A stretch of DNA of 57,910 nucleotides from Burkholderiales bacterium (GTDB lineage Bacteria > Pseudomonadota > Gammaproteobacteria > Burkholderiales > Casimicrobiaceae). This document shows, one piece after another, positions 23,085-31,283 of this stretch (position 1 is its first letter; each line of letters opens with the position of its first letter). The notes below the pieces were generated by a model. The model was not told where the DNA came from. It worked only from the letters and a program-made list of their open reading frames with translations, and made no database searches. Location: NCBI GenBank assembly GCA_025927765.1, contig JAICKU010000015.1, positions 1 through 57,910 of the forward strand. Reading direction: 5' to 3'. A program made the translations under genes and the position numbers.

Positions 23085-23660
23085 TCAGAGCTTGCGCACG
23101 AGGCCGACCATTACGCCGAAGATTTCGAGCGTGCCTTCGGGGCGGATGACCGGATAGCCCTTGTTCTCGGGCCGCAGGATGAAGCGGCCGTTCTCGAGGT
23201 CGAGCCGCTTCAGCGTGAACTGGTTGTCGACGATGGCGACGACGATGTCGCCCTTCTTGGCCGCCGGCTGCTTTTCCACGACGACGAGGTCGCCGTCGAA
23301 GATGCCCGCGTCGATCATCGAATCGCCCTTGACGCGCACGAGCACCGTTTGCGACGGCCGCTCGATCAGGTAATCGTCGAGCGTGACGGCGTCGGCTTCG
23401 TCGTCGACGATGGGCTCGGGCAGGCCCGCGCGCACGAAGCCGGTGGCGATCGGTCGCGCGAAGAAGCGTTTGGTGGGCGCGAGGCGCCGGTCGGGTGTGG
23501 ACTCGACGTAACCGGCGAGTTTCATGCGGGCGATCAGCGCGGCCACCGACGATTTCGACTTCAGCCCGAGCAGGCTGCCGATCGACGCATACGATGGCAG
23601 CGCGCGATGGCGCGCGTAGTAGTCCTGCAGCGTGCCCAGATAGGAACGATCGTTCGACAT
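23085..23660 (-). CDS. LexA-like S24 autocleaving repressor
   Basis: A 191-residue protein. Residues 1-65 are a LexA-type winged helix (LPSYASIGSLLGLKSKSSVA, ALIARMKLAGYV). The S24 domain has an Ala78-Gly79 cleavage site (FVRAGLPEP), the nucleophile Ser114 (KGDSMIDAGIFDGD) and the general base Lys151 (NQFTLKRL). The Ser-Lys spacing of 37 equals that of E. coli LexA. The ATG at 23660 has no ribosome site and lies where transcription is expected to begin. It is divergent from a DnaQ/GIY-YIG nuclease across a palindromic operator. It may be the SOS repressor or a second LexA-type regulator. Confidence 0.88.
   Translation of the reverse strand: MSNDRSYLGTLQDYYARHRALPSYASIGSLLGLKSKSSVAALIARMKLAGYVESTPDRRLAPTKRFFARPIATGFVRAGLPEPIVDDEADAVTLDDYLIERPSQTVLVRVKGDSMIDAGIFDGDLVVVEKQPAAKKGDIVVAIVDNQFTLKRLDLENGRFILRPENKGYPVIRPEGTLEIFGVMVGLVRKL
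23644..23655. promoter_or_regulatory. Second operator-like palindrome
   Basis: GAACGATCGTTC repeats the core of the first palindrome, with centres 31 bp apart (about three helical turns). It lies in codons 2-6 of the LexA-like gene. Together the two sites would suit cooperative binding. Confidence 0.5.
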
Positions 23661-23666
23661 ACCGCT

Positions 23667-23696
23667 ACAATAGCGAACGATCGTTCGCACTGTCAA
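23667..23696 (-). promoter_or_regulatory. Promoter of the LexA-like gene
   Basis: On the minus strand a perfect -35 TTGACA (23696-23691) is followed, after 18 bases, by TATTGT (23672-23667). The -10 ends seven bases before the ATG at 23660, so the mRNA is probably leaderless. Confidence 0.7.
23673..23688. promoter_or_regulatory. Perfect 16-bp palindromic operator
   Basis: GCGAACGATCGTTCGC is a perfect palindrome lying exactly between the -35 and -10 of the LexA-like gene, and ends 10 bases before the GTG of the divergent nuclease. It contains GAAC-N4-GTTC, the form of LexA boxes in Bacillus and actinobacteria. Autoregulation and control of the neighbour are inferred. Confidence 0.7.
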
Positions 23697-23698
23697 GC

Positions 23699-25096
23699 GT
23701 GCTTCCGCTGCCCGCCTTCGCCTTCGTCGACCTCGAAACCACGGGCACGCACGCCGGCGCCGACCGCATCACCGAAATCGGCATCGTGCGCGTCGACGAC
23801 GTCGACGGCGTCGTGCGCGTGCGCGAGTGGCAATCGCTCGTCGATCCCGGCGTGCCCATTCCGCCCGCCATCCAGGTGCTCACCGGCATCACCGATGCCA
23901 TGGTCGCCCGAGCGCCCTCGTTCCCGGCGGTTGCGCGCGACGTGCTCGACCTGTTGCGCGACTGCGTGTTCGTCGCGCACAACGCGCGCTTCGACTACGG
24001 CTTCCTGAAGCATGCGTTCGCGCGGCTCGACGTCGCGTACTCGGCACGCGTGCTTTGCACGGTGCGCCTGTCGCGACGTCTCTTTCCCGACGCCGACGGA
24101 GGCCATGGCCTCGACGCGGTGATCGCGCGCCACGCGCTTGCGGTGAGCGAGCGTCATCGCGCGCTCGGCGATGCCCGTGCGATCTGGTCGTTCGTCGACG
24201 GCCTCTATCGCAGTGAACCGGCCGAGCGCGTCCACGCGGCGGTGCGCGGCATCCTCAAGGTGCCGAGCCTGCCGCCGCAACTGCCGGCCGATGCGATCGA
24301 CGCGCTGCCCGAAGCGCCCGGCGTCTACCTCTTCTACGGCGACAATCCGCTGCCGCTCTACATCGGCAAGAGCGTCAACCTGCGCGAGCGCGTCGGCGCG
24401 CATTTCAGCAGCGACTGGCGCAGTGAAACCGACCTGCGGCTGTCGCAGGAGATTCGCCGCATCGAGCACGAGCGAACCGCCGGCGAGCTCGGCGCGCTGC
24501 TGCGCGAAGCCGTGCTCGTGAAGGCGCTCATGCCCGCGCACAACCGCGCGCTGCGTCGCAAGGAAGACGCCGGCATCGCCACGCTCGTCGACGGATTGCC
24601 CGCATTCATGCCTGCGGACACCATCGATGCGCGCGACCTCGATGCGGCCTACGGGCCGTTCGCGTCGCGCGCGTCGTTTCGCACGACGCTGCGCGCGCTC
24701 GCCCGCGAGCATCGACTGTGTGAACGACGGCTGCGGCTCGAGCGCGGCGCCGGTGCGTGCTTCGCGCGGCAACTGCATCGCTGCAACGGTGTGTGCGTGG
24801 GCGAAGAGCCGGCGCACACGCACGACCAGCGCCTGATCGCCGCACTCGCGCCGCTCGCGATTCCGCGCTGGCCGCTCGACGGTCCCGCCTGCGTGCGCGA
24901 GTGCGCGAGCGACGCCGAGCGCGTCGACGTGCACGTGTTTCGCGACTGGCACTGGATCGGCACGGCACGCGACGAGGGCGAGCTGCAGGAACTCGCCACC
25001 GCGACCTCGCGTGCGTCGTTCGACCTCGACGTCACGCGGCTTTTGATTCGGCGTTATCGCGCCGGCACGCTCACGCTGCTGCCTCTGGTGCGGTAA
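23699..25096 (+). CDS. DnaQ-type exonuclease fused to GIY-YIG nuclease (Cho/UvrC-like)
   Basis: A 465-residue fusion starting at a GTG. Residues about 7-165 are a DEDDh exonuclease: FVDLETTG, VAHNARFDYGFL and a late HRALGDARAI. Residues about 205-290 are a GIY-YIG endonuclease: GVYLFYGDNPLPLYIGKSVN and EAVLVKALMPAHN, as in UvrC and Cho. A C-terminal segment has cysteines (RQLHRCNGVCVGE) like those of the UvrC cysteine-rich region. It probably acts in DNA repair, incising or trimming damage. Cho is SOS-induced in E. coli; here the operator lies just upstream of the start. Confidence 0.9.
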   Translation: MLPLPAFAFVDLETTGTHAGADRITEIGIVRVDDVDGVVRVREWQSLVDPGVPIPPAIQVLTGITDAMVARAPSFPAVARDVLDLLRDCVFVAHNARFDYGFLKHAFARLDVAYSARVLCTVRLSRRLFPDADGGHGLDAVIARHALAVSERHRALGDARAIWSFVDGLYRSEPAERVHAAVRGILKVPSLPPQLPADAIDALPEAPGVYLFYGDNPLPLYIGKSVNLRERVGAHFSSDWRSETDLRLSQEIRRIEHERTAGELGALLREAVLVKALMPAHNRALRRKEDAGIATLVDGLPAFMPADTIDARDLDAAYGPFASRASFRTTLRALAREHRLCERRLRLERGAGACFARQLHRCNGVCVGEEPAHTHDQRLIAALAPLAIPRWPLDGPACVRECASDAERVDVHVFRDWHWIGTARDEGELQELATATSRASFDLDVTRLLIRRYRAGTLTLLPLVR

Positions 25097-27593: not shown

Positions 27594-27651
27594 GAATGGA
27601 AGGCCCGTCAACGATCGAGTCGGGGCGGAAGGAAGAACAGCCGACACCACG

Positions 27652-30306
27652 ATGGGGCTCGAACTCTATCGCAAGAAGCGTAACTTCAGGACGACGCCCG
27701 AGCCGGCCGGTCGCGTGCACACGAAGCGCGCGCGCGAACCGGCGTTCGTGATCCAGAAGCATGCGGCGTCGCACCTGCATTACGACTTCCGGCTCGAGCA
27801 TAACGGCGTGCTGCTGAGCTGGGCGGTGCCGAAGGGGCCGAGCCTCGATCCGCGCGACAAGCGCCTCGCGATGCACGTCGAGGATCACCCGATCGAGTAC
27901 GGCGACTTCGAAGGCGTGATTCCGCCGAAGCAATACGGCTCGGGCACGGTGCTGCTGTGGGACCGCGGCACGTGGGAGCCGCAGGGCGACCCCGAAGCCG
28001 GCTACCACCAGGGCAAGCTCAAGTTCGTGCTGCACGGCGAGAAGTTGCACGGCGGCTGGATGCTGGTGAAGAGTCACGGCGGCAAGTACGACGGCGAGAA
28101 GAGCTGGCTGCTCATCAAGGAAAACGACGAATACGCGCGCCGCGGGCCCGACGCCCGCGTCGTCGACACCGAGCCGGAAAGCGTCGCCTCCGGGCGCAGC
28201 CTGGAAGCGATCGCCGCCGATCCCGACCGCGTGTGGCACTCGAACAAACCGGTCGAGGAAAACGTGCGCAGCGGCAAAGTGGCCAAGCGCAAGCTCGACC
28301 TCGGCCTGGCGAAGGTGCACGGCGCGCGCAAGGCACCGTTGCCCGACGCCATGGAAGCGGAGCTCGCGACGCTCGTCGATCAGGCGCCGGCCGGCGACGC
28401 GTGGCTGCACGAAATCAAGTTCGACGGCTATCGGATGCTCGCGCGCGTCGACGACGGCGAATGCGTGATCGTGTCGCGCAACGGCAAGGATTGGTCGTCG
28501 TCGTTCCCGACGATCGGTGACGCGCTGGTGCGCCTGCCGCTGAAGAACGCGTGGATCGACGGCGAGATCGTCGTCCTCGACGCCCACGGACGCTCGAGCT
28601 TCCAGGCACTGCAGAACGCGTTGTCGGGAGTGGTGCGCGGCAAGCTCGTCTACTGCGTGTTCGACCTGCCGTACGTCGACGGCTACGACCTGCGCGATGT
28701 CCCGCTCGACAAGCGCAAGGCGTTGCTCGCGAAGATCGTGGGCGCAGGAAGCGTGATTCGCTTCAGCGATCACGTCGTCGGCGATGGGCCCGCATTCTTT
28801 GCGCAGGCCTGCGGCCTCGGCGTCGAAGGCATCGTGTCGAAGCGCGTCGACTCGCGCTACGTGGCAACGCGAAGCCGCGACTGGCAGAAGGTCAAGTGCG
28901 GGATGCGCCAGGAGTTCGTGATCGGCGGCTACACCGATCCGCAAGGATCGCGTACGGGCTTCGGCGCGCTGCTGCTCGGCGTGTACGACGGCAATGCGCT
29001 GCGCTACTGCGGCAAGGTCGGCACGGGCTTCAACGACGCCACGCTGAAGACGCTCGCTGCCGAGCTCGAGGAGCTCGCGATCGACGAGCCCGCGTTCGTG
29101 AACCCGCCCACAGGCGCCGAAGCGCGGCGTGCGCATTGGGTGCGGCCGGAGCTCGTCGCCGAAGTGTCGTTCACCGAATGGACGCGCGACGGCACGCTAC
29201 GCCATCCGTCGTTCCAGGGACTGCGCGAGGACAAGCCGGCGCGGCAGGTCGTACGCGAAGCGCCGAGCGAGGCGACGGACGCGCCGCCGCCCGAAGCGCC
29301 GGTCGCGAAGACCCGCAGCGAGGCGGTTGCGAAACCGAAGTCGTCTCGCGCCACGCGCGCGCGGAAGACGACGGCGTCACGGCACGATGATGCGAAGGAT
29401 ACCGTCGCAGGCATCGCGATCAGCAATCCCGACAAGGTGCTCTACCCCGAGGCGGGCATCACCAAGCTCGACGTCGCGCACTATTACGACGCCGTCGGCA
29501 AGCTGATCGTGCCGCAGCTTTGCGACCGGCCGCTCACGCTCGTACGCTGCCCCAACGGCTGGGACAAGCCGTGCTTCTACCAGAAACATGCGAACGAAGC
29601 GGTGTCAGAGCACATCGAGCGCATCGACATCCGCGACGGCGGTGGCGTGCAGCCGTACATGATGGCGAACAGCGTCGAAGCCGTCGTCGCGCTGCTGCAG
29701 ATGGGCGTGATCGAGATGCACCCGTGGGGGTCGCGTGCGCCGCATCTCGATCGGCCCGACCGGCTGATCTTCGACTTCGATCCGGACGAAGCGCTCGACT
29801 ACGAGCCGCTCGTCGAAGGCGTCACGGTGCTGCGCAAGCTGCTCGACACGCTCGAGCTCGAGGCGTTCCTGAAGACAACCGGCGGCAAGGGCGTGCACGT
29901 CGTGGTGCCGATCGAGCCGACGCGAACTTGGGACGATGCGAAGGAGTTCTGCCGCGCCGTCGCCGACATGATCGTCAAGGCGTTTCCGGATCGCTATACG
30001 GCGAGCATGGCCAAGGCGCGGCGGCCCGGGCGCATCTTCATCGACTACCTGCGCAACGTCGAAGGCGCGACGGCCGTCGCGGCGTATTCGGTGCGCGCGA
30101 AGGCGCGTGCGCCGGTGTCGATGCCGATCGACTGGAGCGAGCTGTCGCACGACGTGCGCTTCGACCGATTCAACGTGAAGAACGTCCCGGAGATCGTCGC
30201 GAAGCGCAAACGCGATCCATGGGCGCGCATGCCGCGCGTGCGGCAGGCATTGACCGACGAGATGCTCGCGCGTGTGGGCGCGAAGGTCCCGTCGACGAGG
30301 AGATGA
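27652..30306 (+). CDS. ligD: Multidomain ATP-dependent DNA ligase LigD
   Basis: An 884-residue NHEJ ligase in the order phosphoesterase-ligase-polymerase. The PE domain (residues about 32-160) has HLHYDFRLEHNG, SWAVPKGPS and HPIEYGDFEG. The ligase domain (about 220-525) has the nucleotidyl lysine Lys256 in HEIKFDGYR, then IDGEIV and VSKRVDSRY. A basic Ala/Lys/Arg linker (about 530-580) precedes the AEP polymerase domain (about 580-870) with ISNPDKVLYPEAG and catalytic aspartates in FDFDPDE. Its stop overlaps the ku start region, consistent with one NHEJ unit. Confidence 0.96.
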   Translation: MGLELYRKKRNFRTTPEPAGRVHTKRAREPAFVIQKHAASHLHYDFRLEHNGVLLSWAVPKGPSLDPRDKRLAMHVEDHPIEYGDFEGVIPPKQYGSGTVLLWDRGTWEPQGDPEAGYHQGKLKFVLHGEKLHGGWMLVKSHGGKYDGEKSWLLIKENDEYARRGPDARVVDTEPESVASGRSLEAIAADPDRVWHSNKPVEENVRSGKVAKRKLDLGLAKVHGARKAPLPDAMEAELATLVDQAPAGDAWLHEIKFDGYRMLARVDDGECVIVSRNGKDWSSSFPTIGDALVRLPLKNAWIDGEIVVLDAHGRSSFQALQNALSGVVRGKLVYCVFDLPYVDGYDLRDVPLDKRKALLAKIVGAGSVIRFSDHVVGDGPAFFAQACGLGVEGIVSKRVDSRYVATRSRDWQKVKCGMRQEFVIGGYTDPQGSRTGFGALLLGVYDGNALRYCGKVGTGFNDATLKTLAAELEELAIDEPAFVNPPTGAEARRAHWVRPELVAEVSFTEWTRDGTLRHPSFQGLREDKPARQVVREAPSEATDAPPPEAPVAKTRSEAVAKPKSSRATRARKTTASRHDDAKDTVAGIAISNPDKVLYPEAGITKLDVAHYYDAVGKLIVPQLCDRPLTLVRCPNGWDKPCFYQKHANEAVSEHIERIDIRDGGGVQPYMMANSVEAVVALLQMGVIEMHPWGSRAPHLDRPDRLIFDFDPDEALDYEPLVEGVTVLRKLLDTLELEAFLKTTGGKGVHVVVPIEPTRTWDDAKEFCRAVADMIVKAFPDRYTASMAKARRPGRIFIDYLRNVEGATAVAAYSVRAKARAPVSMPIDWSELSHDVRFDRFNVKNVPEIVAKRKRDPWARMPRVRQALTDEMLARVGAKVPSTRR

Positions 30307-30308
30307 CG

Positions 30309-31283
30309 ATGGCACGGGCAATCTGGAAAGGCACGATCAGCTTCGGTCTCGTCAACGTCCCGGTCGAGCTCTACCCCGCGTCGCAGTCGCAGACGCTCTC
30401 GTTCACGATGCTCGACAAGCGCGACTTCAGCCCGGTGGGCTACAAGCGTTACAACAAGACCACCGGTGGGGAAGTGCCGTGGAACGACATCGTCAAGGGC
30501 TACGAGTACGAGAAGGACCAGTACGTGGTGATGAGCGACGAGGACTTTCGCCGCGCGAACGCGCAGCAGGCGAAGTCGGTGGAAATCTCGACGTTCGTCG
30601 ACGCGCGCAGCATCCCGCCGCAGTACTTCGAGACGCCGTACTACCTGGTGCCCGGTGAGCGCGGGCAGAAGGTCTACGCGCTGCTGCGCGAGACGATGCG
30701 CGAGACCGGCAAGGTCGGCGTCGGACAGGTGGTGATCCGCACGACGCACCATCTCGCGGCCGTCGTCCCGGTGGGCCCAGCGCTGATGATGATCACGCTG
30801 CGCTATGCGGACGAAATCCGGCCGCAGAAGGAGTTCGATTTCCCGCCCGAGTCGTTGAAGAGCGCCGGCGTGACGCCGAAGGAGCTCGACCTCGCGAAGC
30901 GGCTGATCGACGACATGGCCGGCGATTGGGACCCGAACGCGTTCGAGGACACGTACAACGAAGACCTGATGGCGCGCATCGAAGACAAGATCAAGCGCGG
31001 GGAAACGCATCTTCTGACCAAGCCCGAGGCCGAGGCCGGCGAAGGCCGCAGCGCGCAGGTGATCGACCTGATGGAGCTCCTGAAGCGCAGCATCGACAAG
31101 ACGAGCGAGCGCGCACCTGCACGCAAGCGGTCCGCGAAGAGCTCGGAAGCAGCCAACGAGGAAGAGGCCACGCCGGCGGAGGAAGCGCGGCCGCCTGCCG
31201 CAGCGCGCGCGCGCAAGGTCACGACGGCGAGCAAGGCAGCAGCGGCCGAGCGCAAGCCGGCGACCAAGCGCAAGCGCGCGTAA
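30309..31283 (+). CDS. ku: Ku protein, NHEJ DNA-end binding
   Basis: A 324-residue Ku homologue that binds double-strand ends and recruits LigD. The N-terminus MARAIWKGTISFGLVNVPVE is the family signature, followed by the beta-barrel ring to about residue 255. The C-terminal 70 residues form a long Lys/Ala-rich tail (ARKRSAKSS ... KPATKRKRA), as in Ku proteins that also contact intact DNA. The ATG at 30309 has GAGGAG seven bases upstream; the ATG at 30303, overlapping the ligD stop as ATGA, is too close to it. Confidence 0.95.
   Translation: MARAIWKGTISFGLVNVPVELYPASQSQTLSFTMLDKRDFSPVGYKRYNKTTGGEVPWNDIVKGYEYEKDQYVVMSDEDFRRANAQQAKSVEISTFVDARSIPPQYFETPYYLVPGERGQKVYALLRETMRETGKVGVGQVVIRTTHHLAAVVPVGPALMMITLRYADEIRPQKEFDFPPESLKSAGVTPKELDLAKRLIDDMAGDWDPNAFEDTYNEDLMARIEDKIKRGETHLLTKPEAEAGEGRSAQVIDLMELLKRSIDKTSERAPARKRSAKSSEAANEEEATPAEEARPPAAARARKVTTASKAAAAERKPATKRKRA

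Follow-up and report, generated by a model that had tools for sequence, protein, structure and literature searches.

The window analysed here is a stretch of 57,910 nucleotides from contig JAICKU010000015.1 of a Burkholderiales bacterium of the family Casimicrobiaceae (GenBank assembly GCA_025927765.1). It contains a minus-strand gene for a LexA-type repressor, here called lexA, and a divergent gene for a fusion of a DnaQ-type exonuclease with a Cho/UvrC-type endonuclease, with 38 bp between the two start codons (Table 1). Two copies of the palindromic box GAACGATCGTTC lie 31 bp apart at the start of the repressor gene, and one of them falls inside the beginning of the coding region, as the initial annotation of this DNA had stated. 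A scan of positions 23560–23800 showed a single sigma-70-like site, TTGACA-N18-TATTGT on the minus strand (23696–23667; mean of 0.1 in shuffled sequences), which would serve lexA. The palindrome GCGAACGATCGTTCGC does lie in the spacer of this promoter, which it had been said to fill exactly, but it occupies only 16 of the 18 spacer bases. The box was also correctly described as having the Gram-positive form: according to PMC3323433, GAAC-N4-GTTC is the form of the Bacillus subtilis LexA box, a palindrome of the same form as here, and CTGT-N8-ACAG is the form in most beta- and gammaproteobacteria. PMC6595937 cites Sanchez-Alberola et al. (2015) in a sentence about CTGT-N8-ACAG. No CTGT-N8-ACAG was found within 300 bp upstream of the nuclease start, a span covering the lexA start (L265).

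Table 1. Features of the lexA/nuclease locus, in window coordinates, and sites of the second LexA system elsewhere in the host genome
Feature	Position	Strand	Remark
Noncanonical LexA-type repressor, 191 residues, ATG start	23085..23660	-	winged-helix N-terminus, UmuD-like S24 peptidase C-terminus
Ala78-Gly79, predicted self-cleavage site	23424..23429	-	aligned with E. coli LexA and UmuD; invariant in 11 rows
Catalytic Ser114 codon	23319..23321	-	alignment
Catalytic Lys151 codon	23208..23210	-	alignment
Operator 1, GAACGATCGTTC, lexA codons 3-6	23644..23655	strand-neutral	ATG at 23660
Operator 2, GCGAACGATCGTTCGC, 16-bp palindrome in the -35/-10 spacer of lexA	23673..23688	strand-neutral
lexA -35 element TTGACA	23691..23696	-	promoter scan
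lexA -10 element TATTGT	23667..23672	-	promoter scan; predicted transcription start at or next to ATG
DnaQ-type exonuclease/Cho-UvrC-type endonuclease fusion, 465 residues	23699..25096	+	GTG start at 23699, divergent from lexA
DEDDh exonuclease domain, nuclease residues 9-162	23723..24184	+
UvrC/Cho-type GIY-YIG domain, nuclease residues 200-286	24296..24556	+
Second LexA system	L012 5571-6227 (G000 contig C99); L209 1501-1517		TACCG-N10-CGGTA system

Strong repressor matches (59–100% identity, one per genome) defined 29 lexA loci within the family. The results showed that the promoter GAACGNNCGTTC is present in all 29 loci and the intragenic box in 26, the exceptions being two loci of genus g4 and one of g6. 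A set of 80 titled lexA loci was searched over 250 bp of upstream DNA and the first 30 bp of the gene, and the box was found exactly in 68 and with at most one mismatch in 71; leaving aside 22 loci already counted in the family (L088–L109), 46 of 58 were exact and 49 were within one mismatch. As a control, 1600 random windows of that length drawn from these loci, with some possibly covering the true site, contained 45 exact and 66 one-mismatch-or-better hits. The palindrome is therefore kept at orthologous loci within and outside the family, where the initial annotation had held that its absence would refute the proposal. Eighteen further loci of the order, which may overlap with the titled ones, gave 14 exact boxes, three with one mismatch and one with GTACGTTCGTAC. 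In the Methylophilaceae-type loci L153, L158, L159, L164, L166 and L312, GTACG-N2-CGTAC replaces the GAACG box at the same place, and the GAACG box is also missing in L142, L151, L156 and L157.

The intragenic palindrome could be a mere coincidence of the codons for the protein start MSNDRS, and it is indeed missing where the protein begins differently, at the two g4 loci and at the g6 locus. Comparison of the 25 family genes having this box showed that codons 3–5 (AAC GAT CGT) are the same in all 25, although GAT and CGT account for only 28% and 11% of their codon families elsewhere in those genes. Among 101 positions at which the amino acid is invariant, 12 keep a single codon, and three of these 12 are the box codons. 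Because the box codons are identical while so few invariant positions keep one codon, the constraint on the intragenic box, judged by codon use, is on the DNA and goes beyond the needs of the protein. The box also recurs at the same place in the Sulfuricella-type loci L112–L114 and L116, and a coincidence of codons is very unlikely. The two boxes are 31 bp apart in 19 of the 25 double-box family loci and 30–36 bp apart in the other six. Promoter pairs were chosen by script at the family loci other than L047, where the gene reads as split; in 26 of these 28 the best pair puts the transcription start no more than two bases from the ATG, both g4 loci being the exceptions, and a leaderless lexA message with the intragenic box at about +5 is therefore predicted.

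The 4.01-Mb host genome contains three exact copies of GAACGATCGTTC, two at the lexA/nuclease locus and one located 37 bp upstream of the recA open reading frame; the genome-wide search recommended in the initial annotation thus yielded one further exact copy, at recA. Exact CGAACGATCGTTCG is limited to lexA and recA, and CTGT-N8-ACAG is absent within 250 bp of the host recA even at one mismatch (L231). A RecA protein search gave 30 loci, of which 25 remained after four partial genes and one gene other than recA were dropped. The recA box is exact in all 14 loci of g1, g2 and g5 and one mismatch off (GAACGATTGTTC) in both g4 loci, and it is absent within 250 bp in all six g3 and all three g7 loci, genera without a close repressor match. 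Four recA loci fetched for having the box (L058, L059, L184 and L186) are left out of these counts.

Counting of GAACGAWCGTTC in 64 family genomes against a reversed control showed one to seven sites per strand in genomes of g1, g2, g4, g5 and g6, and none or one in the 17 g3 and 11 g7 genomes, none of which has a close repressor match; the control gave none or one, save one g3 genome with four. A single forward site was found in G056, G057, G063, G002 and G022, and the missing repressor match in the first four of these may reflect incomplete assemblies. As a side observation, eight of the 11 g7 genomes (G032–G042), which are small-genome relatives, gave no repressor match at E 0.001, and it is possible that this genus has lost the SOS switch. 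In 52 regions of relatives fetched around GAACGAWCGTTC, genes whose starts lie between 60 bp before and 300 bp beyond the site were tested for SOS kinds, gene identities being confirmed by search for at least one of each kind except recA. A gene of a tested kind was found in 39 regions: UvrD-like helicase in 14, recA in 13, ImuA in four, UvrB in three, the DnaQ-Cho nuclease in two, a LexA-like protein in two and a ligase-associated helicase in one. As the box stands at recA both in the host and in relatives, where it also precedes uvrD-like, uvrB and imuA genes, its distribution makes the GAACG box the general SOS box and not one private to lexA and the nuclease.

These findings bear on the proposal in the initial annotation that the locus is a compact damage-response module with its own operator. 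The proposed repressor, of LexA type and cleavable in appearance, with a GAAC-N4-GTTC operator, is supported; the compact module is not. A circuit confined to the repressor and nuclease genes and separate from the general SOS response would suit the two boxes in or beside the 38-bp gap and the divergent nuclease, which a search of flanks of about 1.5 kb placed beside lexA in 22 of the 29 family loci (in one of them with a partial match). However, the box at recA and at other SOS genes of relatives, together with its retention in the seven family loci where the nuclease was not found, makes such a private circuit very unlikely.

Alignment of the repressor with E. coli LexA and UmuD showed that Ala78-Gly79, Ser114 and Lys151 are all present. 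The Ser–Lys distance is 37 residues, equal to that in E. coli LexA and UmuD, and the distance from cleavage site to Ser is 36, as in UmuD, compared to 35 in E. coli LexA; the annotated cleavage site and catalytic pair at E. coli spacing were thus borne out. The N-terminal half is predicted by a structure model to form a winged helix, which is kept in relatives, and the structure that this model matches best is a LexA-DNA complex. The features of the LexA fold, a winged helix followed by an S24 peptidase with the Ala-Gly site and the Ser-Lys pair, are therefore found in this protein, as in canonical E. coli-type LexA. Compared with E. coli LexA, the N-terminal half is 17.6% identical and the peptidase half 35.4%.

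The peptidase half is closest to UmuD, with 42.5–50.0% identity to four UmuDs compared to 35.4–41.4% for LexA types, and with a PDB search E value of 1.6e-23 for UmuD versus 4.7e-16 for LexA. This likeness, together with the cleavage–Ser spacing, raises the possibility that the gene encodes a UmuD-type polymerase accessory rather than a repressor. However, UmuD has no DNA-binding half, whereas the winged helix is present here and in relatives, the gene carries a box at its own promoter, and its scanned neighbours are a molybdopterin oxidoreductase and, past the nuclease, an M20 peptidase, with no Y-family polymerase among them. A UmuD-type role is therefore extremely unlikely. Identity as a canonical LexA was also considered and rejected: the canonical protein goes with a CTGT-N8-ACAG box, found neither in the 300 bp that cover the lexA start nor within 250 bp of recA, and the repressor falls under the cut-off of the lexA model TIGR00498.

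A noncanonical LexA of the Betaproteobacteria, with a GAACG-type box at lexA and recA and unlike the canonical betaproteobacterial LexA, was reportedly described by Sanchez-Alberola and colleagues in the Journal of Bacteriology (197:2622) in 2015; for the LexA of Sideroxydans, six targets have reportedly been published. The LexA of B. subtilis, which was not among the proteins compared here, is reportedly not closely related to this kind. A quick tree of the peptidase half (65 rows and 119 columns; 31 of the 62 inner branches are open, and long branches drew a warning; the Sideroxydans LexA is not among the rows) set canonical LexA, represented by 17 family rows and E. coli, apart by a branch with a Shimodaira–Hasegawa-like approximate likelihood ratio of 100. 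The noncanonical rows share one side of a branch (support 82) with those of Sulfuricella, Thiobacillus, Gallionellaceae and Methylophilaceae, with four ungrouped S24 rows inside, and repressor orthologues 60–69% identical occur in loci titled with Sulfuricella, Thiobacillus and genera of Gallionellaceae and Methylophilaceae. By its tree grouping, the box at its own promoter and the box at recA, the repressor fits the noncanonical betaproteobacterial kind. In contrast to the described systems, the present one belongs to another family and has two lexA operators, one of them intragenic, a divergent DnaQ-Cho nuclease and a second, canonical-type LexA. Further noncanonical LexA-like paralogues were seen at L190 (G031) and L195 (G044), and each has a copy of GAACGATCGTTC immediately upstream. 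Bins titled Bordetella parapertussis (L092, L134, L144 and L152) also carry the noncanonical kind, and their label looks misassigned.

Taken together, the conserved boxes at lexA, the box at recA, the class of fold and the catalytic residues indicate that the minus-strand gene very probably encodes the SOS master repressor of the host, of the noncanonical betaproteobacterial LexA kind, controlling lexA, the nuclease gene and recA via the GAACG box. In the proposed mechanism, repressor dimers would bind GAACG-N2-CGTTC. Operator 2 would be bound between the -35 and -10 elements, and operator 1 some three helical turns away, within the first codons of the gene, where the leaderless transcript would begin. 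As both operators lie directly before the nuclease start, bound repressor would silence lexA and the nuclease together, and through the same box it would silence recA. On DNA damage, RecA filaments would trigger self-cleavage at Ala78-Gly79 by Ser114 and Lys151, and self-cleavage would release lexA, the nuclease and recA. The repressor would thus be of a known kind; what is noteworthy is that, in a little-known group of betaproteobacteria, it occurs together with a repair nuclease and alongside another LexA whose specificity seems to have changed.

Several points weigh against this reading. The repressor falls just under the curated cut-offs of both the lexA model TIGR00498 (103.8 versus 110.95 bits) and the UmuD model (104.8 versus 110), and the Pfam LexA_DNA_bind match is also sub-threshold (19.4 versus 23.7). 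The structure model is modest, with a mean predicted local distance difference test score of 67.8, a template modelling score of about 0.42 to full-length LexA and a root-mean-square deviation near 15. Thirteen of the 52 regions of relatives have none of the tested SOS genes, and the nuclease was not found beside lexA in seven of the 29 family loci. Repressor binding, cleavage, induction, leaderless transcription and co-regulation of the nuclease are steps that we infer. Finally, the GAACGNNCGTTC class is not enriched in the host genome, with nine sites compared to 11 for the reversed control. A window search for the box at up to two mismatches likewise found four sites versus 5.9 expected, and degenerate copies were not counted because this search showed no excess over shuffles; only near-exact copies and their positions are therefore informative. 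Six of the nine host GAACGNNCGTTC sites, which have other centres, were rejected as operators as they lie inside script-drawn open reading frames (one of them, L052, is also 184 bp before another frame), and one-mismatch sites on contigs C53 and C71 (L207) both lie within open reading frames.

The divergent partner had been annotated as an exonuclease combined with a Cho/UvrC-like endonuclease, and domain searches agreed: the exonuclease domain matches Pfam RNase_T, of DEDDh type (E 8.5e-32), and the second half matches NCBIfam Cho (E 2.5e-57) and UvrC structures. Pfam GIY-YIG missed E 0.001 on the window nuclease and reached it on a family homologue. The same two domains, a DEDDh exonuclease followed by a Cho/UvrC-type GIY-YIG half, make up the known DnaQ-Cho fusions (NCBIfam PRK07883 group and Cho), with scores here under the curated PRK07883 and Cho equivalog cut-offs. 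Of 200 genomes sampled from the order, 100 have a homologue at E ≤ 1e-40. Among the 30 best nuclease loci in the order, the GAACG box was found only in the window and in G023, both beside lexA; unlike these, 27 of the 28 best loci away from lexA have no LexA-type box within 300 bp, and the other has CTGT-N8-ACAG. The divergent fusion was absent from the 58 titled and 18 further lexA loci of other groups as far as the flanks reach, and in L150 and L313 the match is limited to the exonuclease half (39.6%). The DnaQ-Cho fusion is thus ordinary and widespread, and its position beside the noncanonical LexA is a trait of the family.

These observations raise the question of whether the nuclease is a bystander of an operator that controls lexA only. 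The persistence of the box where the nuclease is missing, the scarcity of boxes at nuclease loci elsewhere and the lack of any sigma-70-like nuclease promoter in the scan of 23560–23800 all suit this explanation. However, with 38 bp between the starts a nuclease promoter would overlap the boxes, and cho is an SOS gene in E. coli. In addition, a second DnaQ-Cho fusion, 35% identical, was found away from lexA in G026 (L181, 507–1916, minus strand), its start 45 bp from a GAACG-type box; L206, one of the two boxed nuclease regions in relatives, is itself a lexA locus. The second boxed fusion in L181 counts slightly against the bystander explanation, which is the less likely one but retains more weight than any of the other alternatives. 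The literature examined on Methylophilales contained nothing matching, and that on Cho with LexA nothing related.

The initial annotation had also suggested a search for a second lexA, and one was found. The one further S24 repressor in the host genome is a canonical-type LexA (TIGR00498 score 226.2 bits), with imuA 2.0 kb downstream followed by a gene for an ImuB-like protein. Its promoter carries a different box, TACCGTATATCCGTACGGTA, of the form TACCG-N10-CGGTA, and a two-mismatch copy of the inner 17 bases of TACCGTATATCCGTACGGTA overlaps the start of an error-prone DnaE-type polymerase gene on the same contig. The box was read in 14 of the 29 family second-LexA matches and was present at one mismatch or less in 12, the two without it being g4 genes. 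No published LexA box of the form TACCG-N10-CGGTA is known to us; the literature was not searched by box letters, and we do not claim that it is unpublished. The recognition helix reads SSAED in every second-LexA locus of the family that was read (15 loci from 14 genomes, one genome being counted twice), compared to NAA at the same position in all 35 other canonical-type loci read (31 distinct; NAAEE in g3). The final D of SSAED is also seen with NAA, so the telling change is from NA to SS. In canonical-type loci outside the family the TACCG box was found in none of those read, and exact CTGT-N8-ACAG in 14 of 24. In g3, the canonical lexA is divergent from recA in all seven loci read (of 17 genomes), with starts 260–347 bp apart, and exact CTGT-N8-ACAG precedes lexA in three of the seven.

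In a sample of 200 genomes of the order, a full-length match to the noncanonical LexA was found in 55; both LexA kinds occur in 14, the noncanonical only in 41, the canonical only in 94 and neither in 51. The two kinds avoid each other in these counts, which are uncorrected for kinship. It is conceivable, if somewhat doubtful, that the SOS master was exchanged within this one family, the noncanonical LexA running lexA, recA and uvrD-type genes and the resident canonical LexA being left with imuA-imuB-dnaE2, its recognition helix changed from NAA (NAAEE in g3) to SSAED and its box from CTGT-N8-ACAG to TACCG-N10-CGGTA. If so, repair and mutagenesis would be on two separately tuned switches. The GAACG box at imuA itself in four g5 regions speaks against a clean partition, and the demotion of the canonical LexA may be simply a loss of its other targets, because an imuA-linked LexA of canonical type with CTGT-N8-ACAG is a common arrangement in the order. 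According to PMC5261740, Pseudomonas putida has two LexA proteins, the second tied to imuA-imuB-dnaE2. The present host likewise has an imu-linked second LexA; it differs in that its general repressor is noncanonical and the imu-linked LexA goes with TACCG-N10-CGGTA.

Annotation by models would mislabel the SOS system in this host, as the likely master scores under the lexA model and about equally as UmuD, and the gene that scores as LexA is tied to the mutagenesis cassette. The family also offers three SOS states for comparison: a canonical LexA divergent from recA (g3), a noncanonical LexA usually accompanied by a second LexA (g1, g2, g4 and g5), and no LexA match in the eight g7 genomes mentioned above.

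A recent mobile origin of the repressor was considered and found unsupported, as the plasmid and phage matches listed are UmuD or distant S24 proteins. Comparison of 12 kb of the window with plasmids gave no broad match (11 records, with at most 5% covered among the matches listed). A few kilobases from lexA, on the plus strand, the window also contains an end-joining pair, DNA ligase D and Ku (27649–31280).

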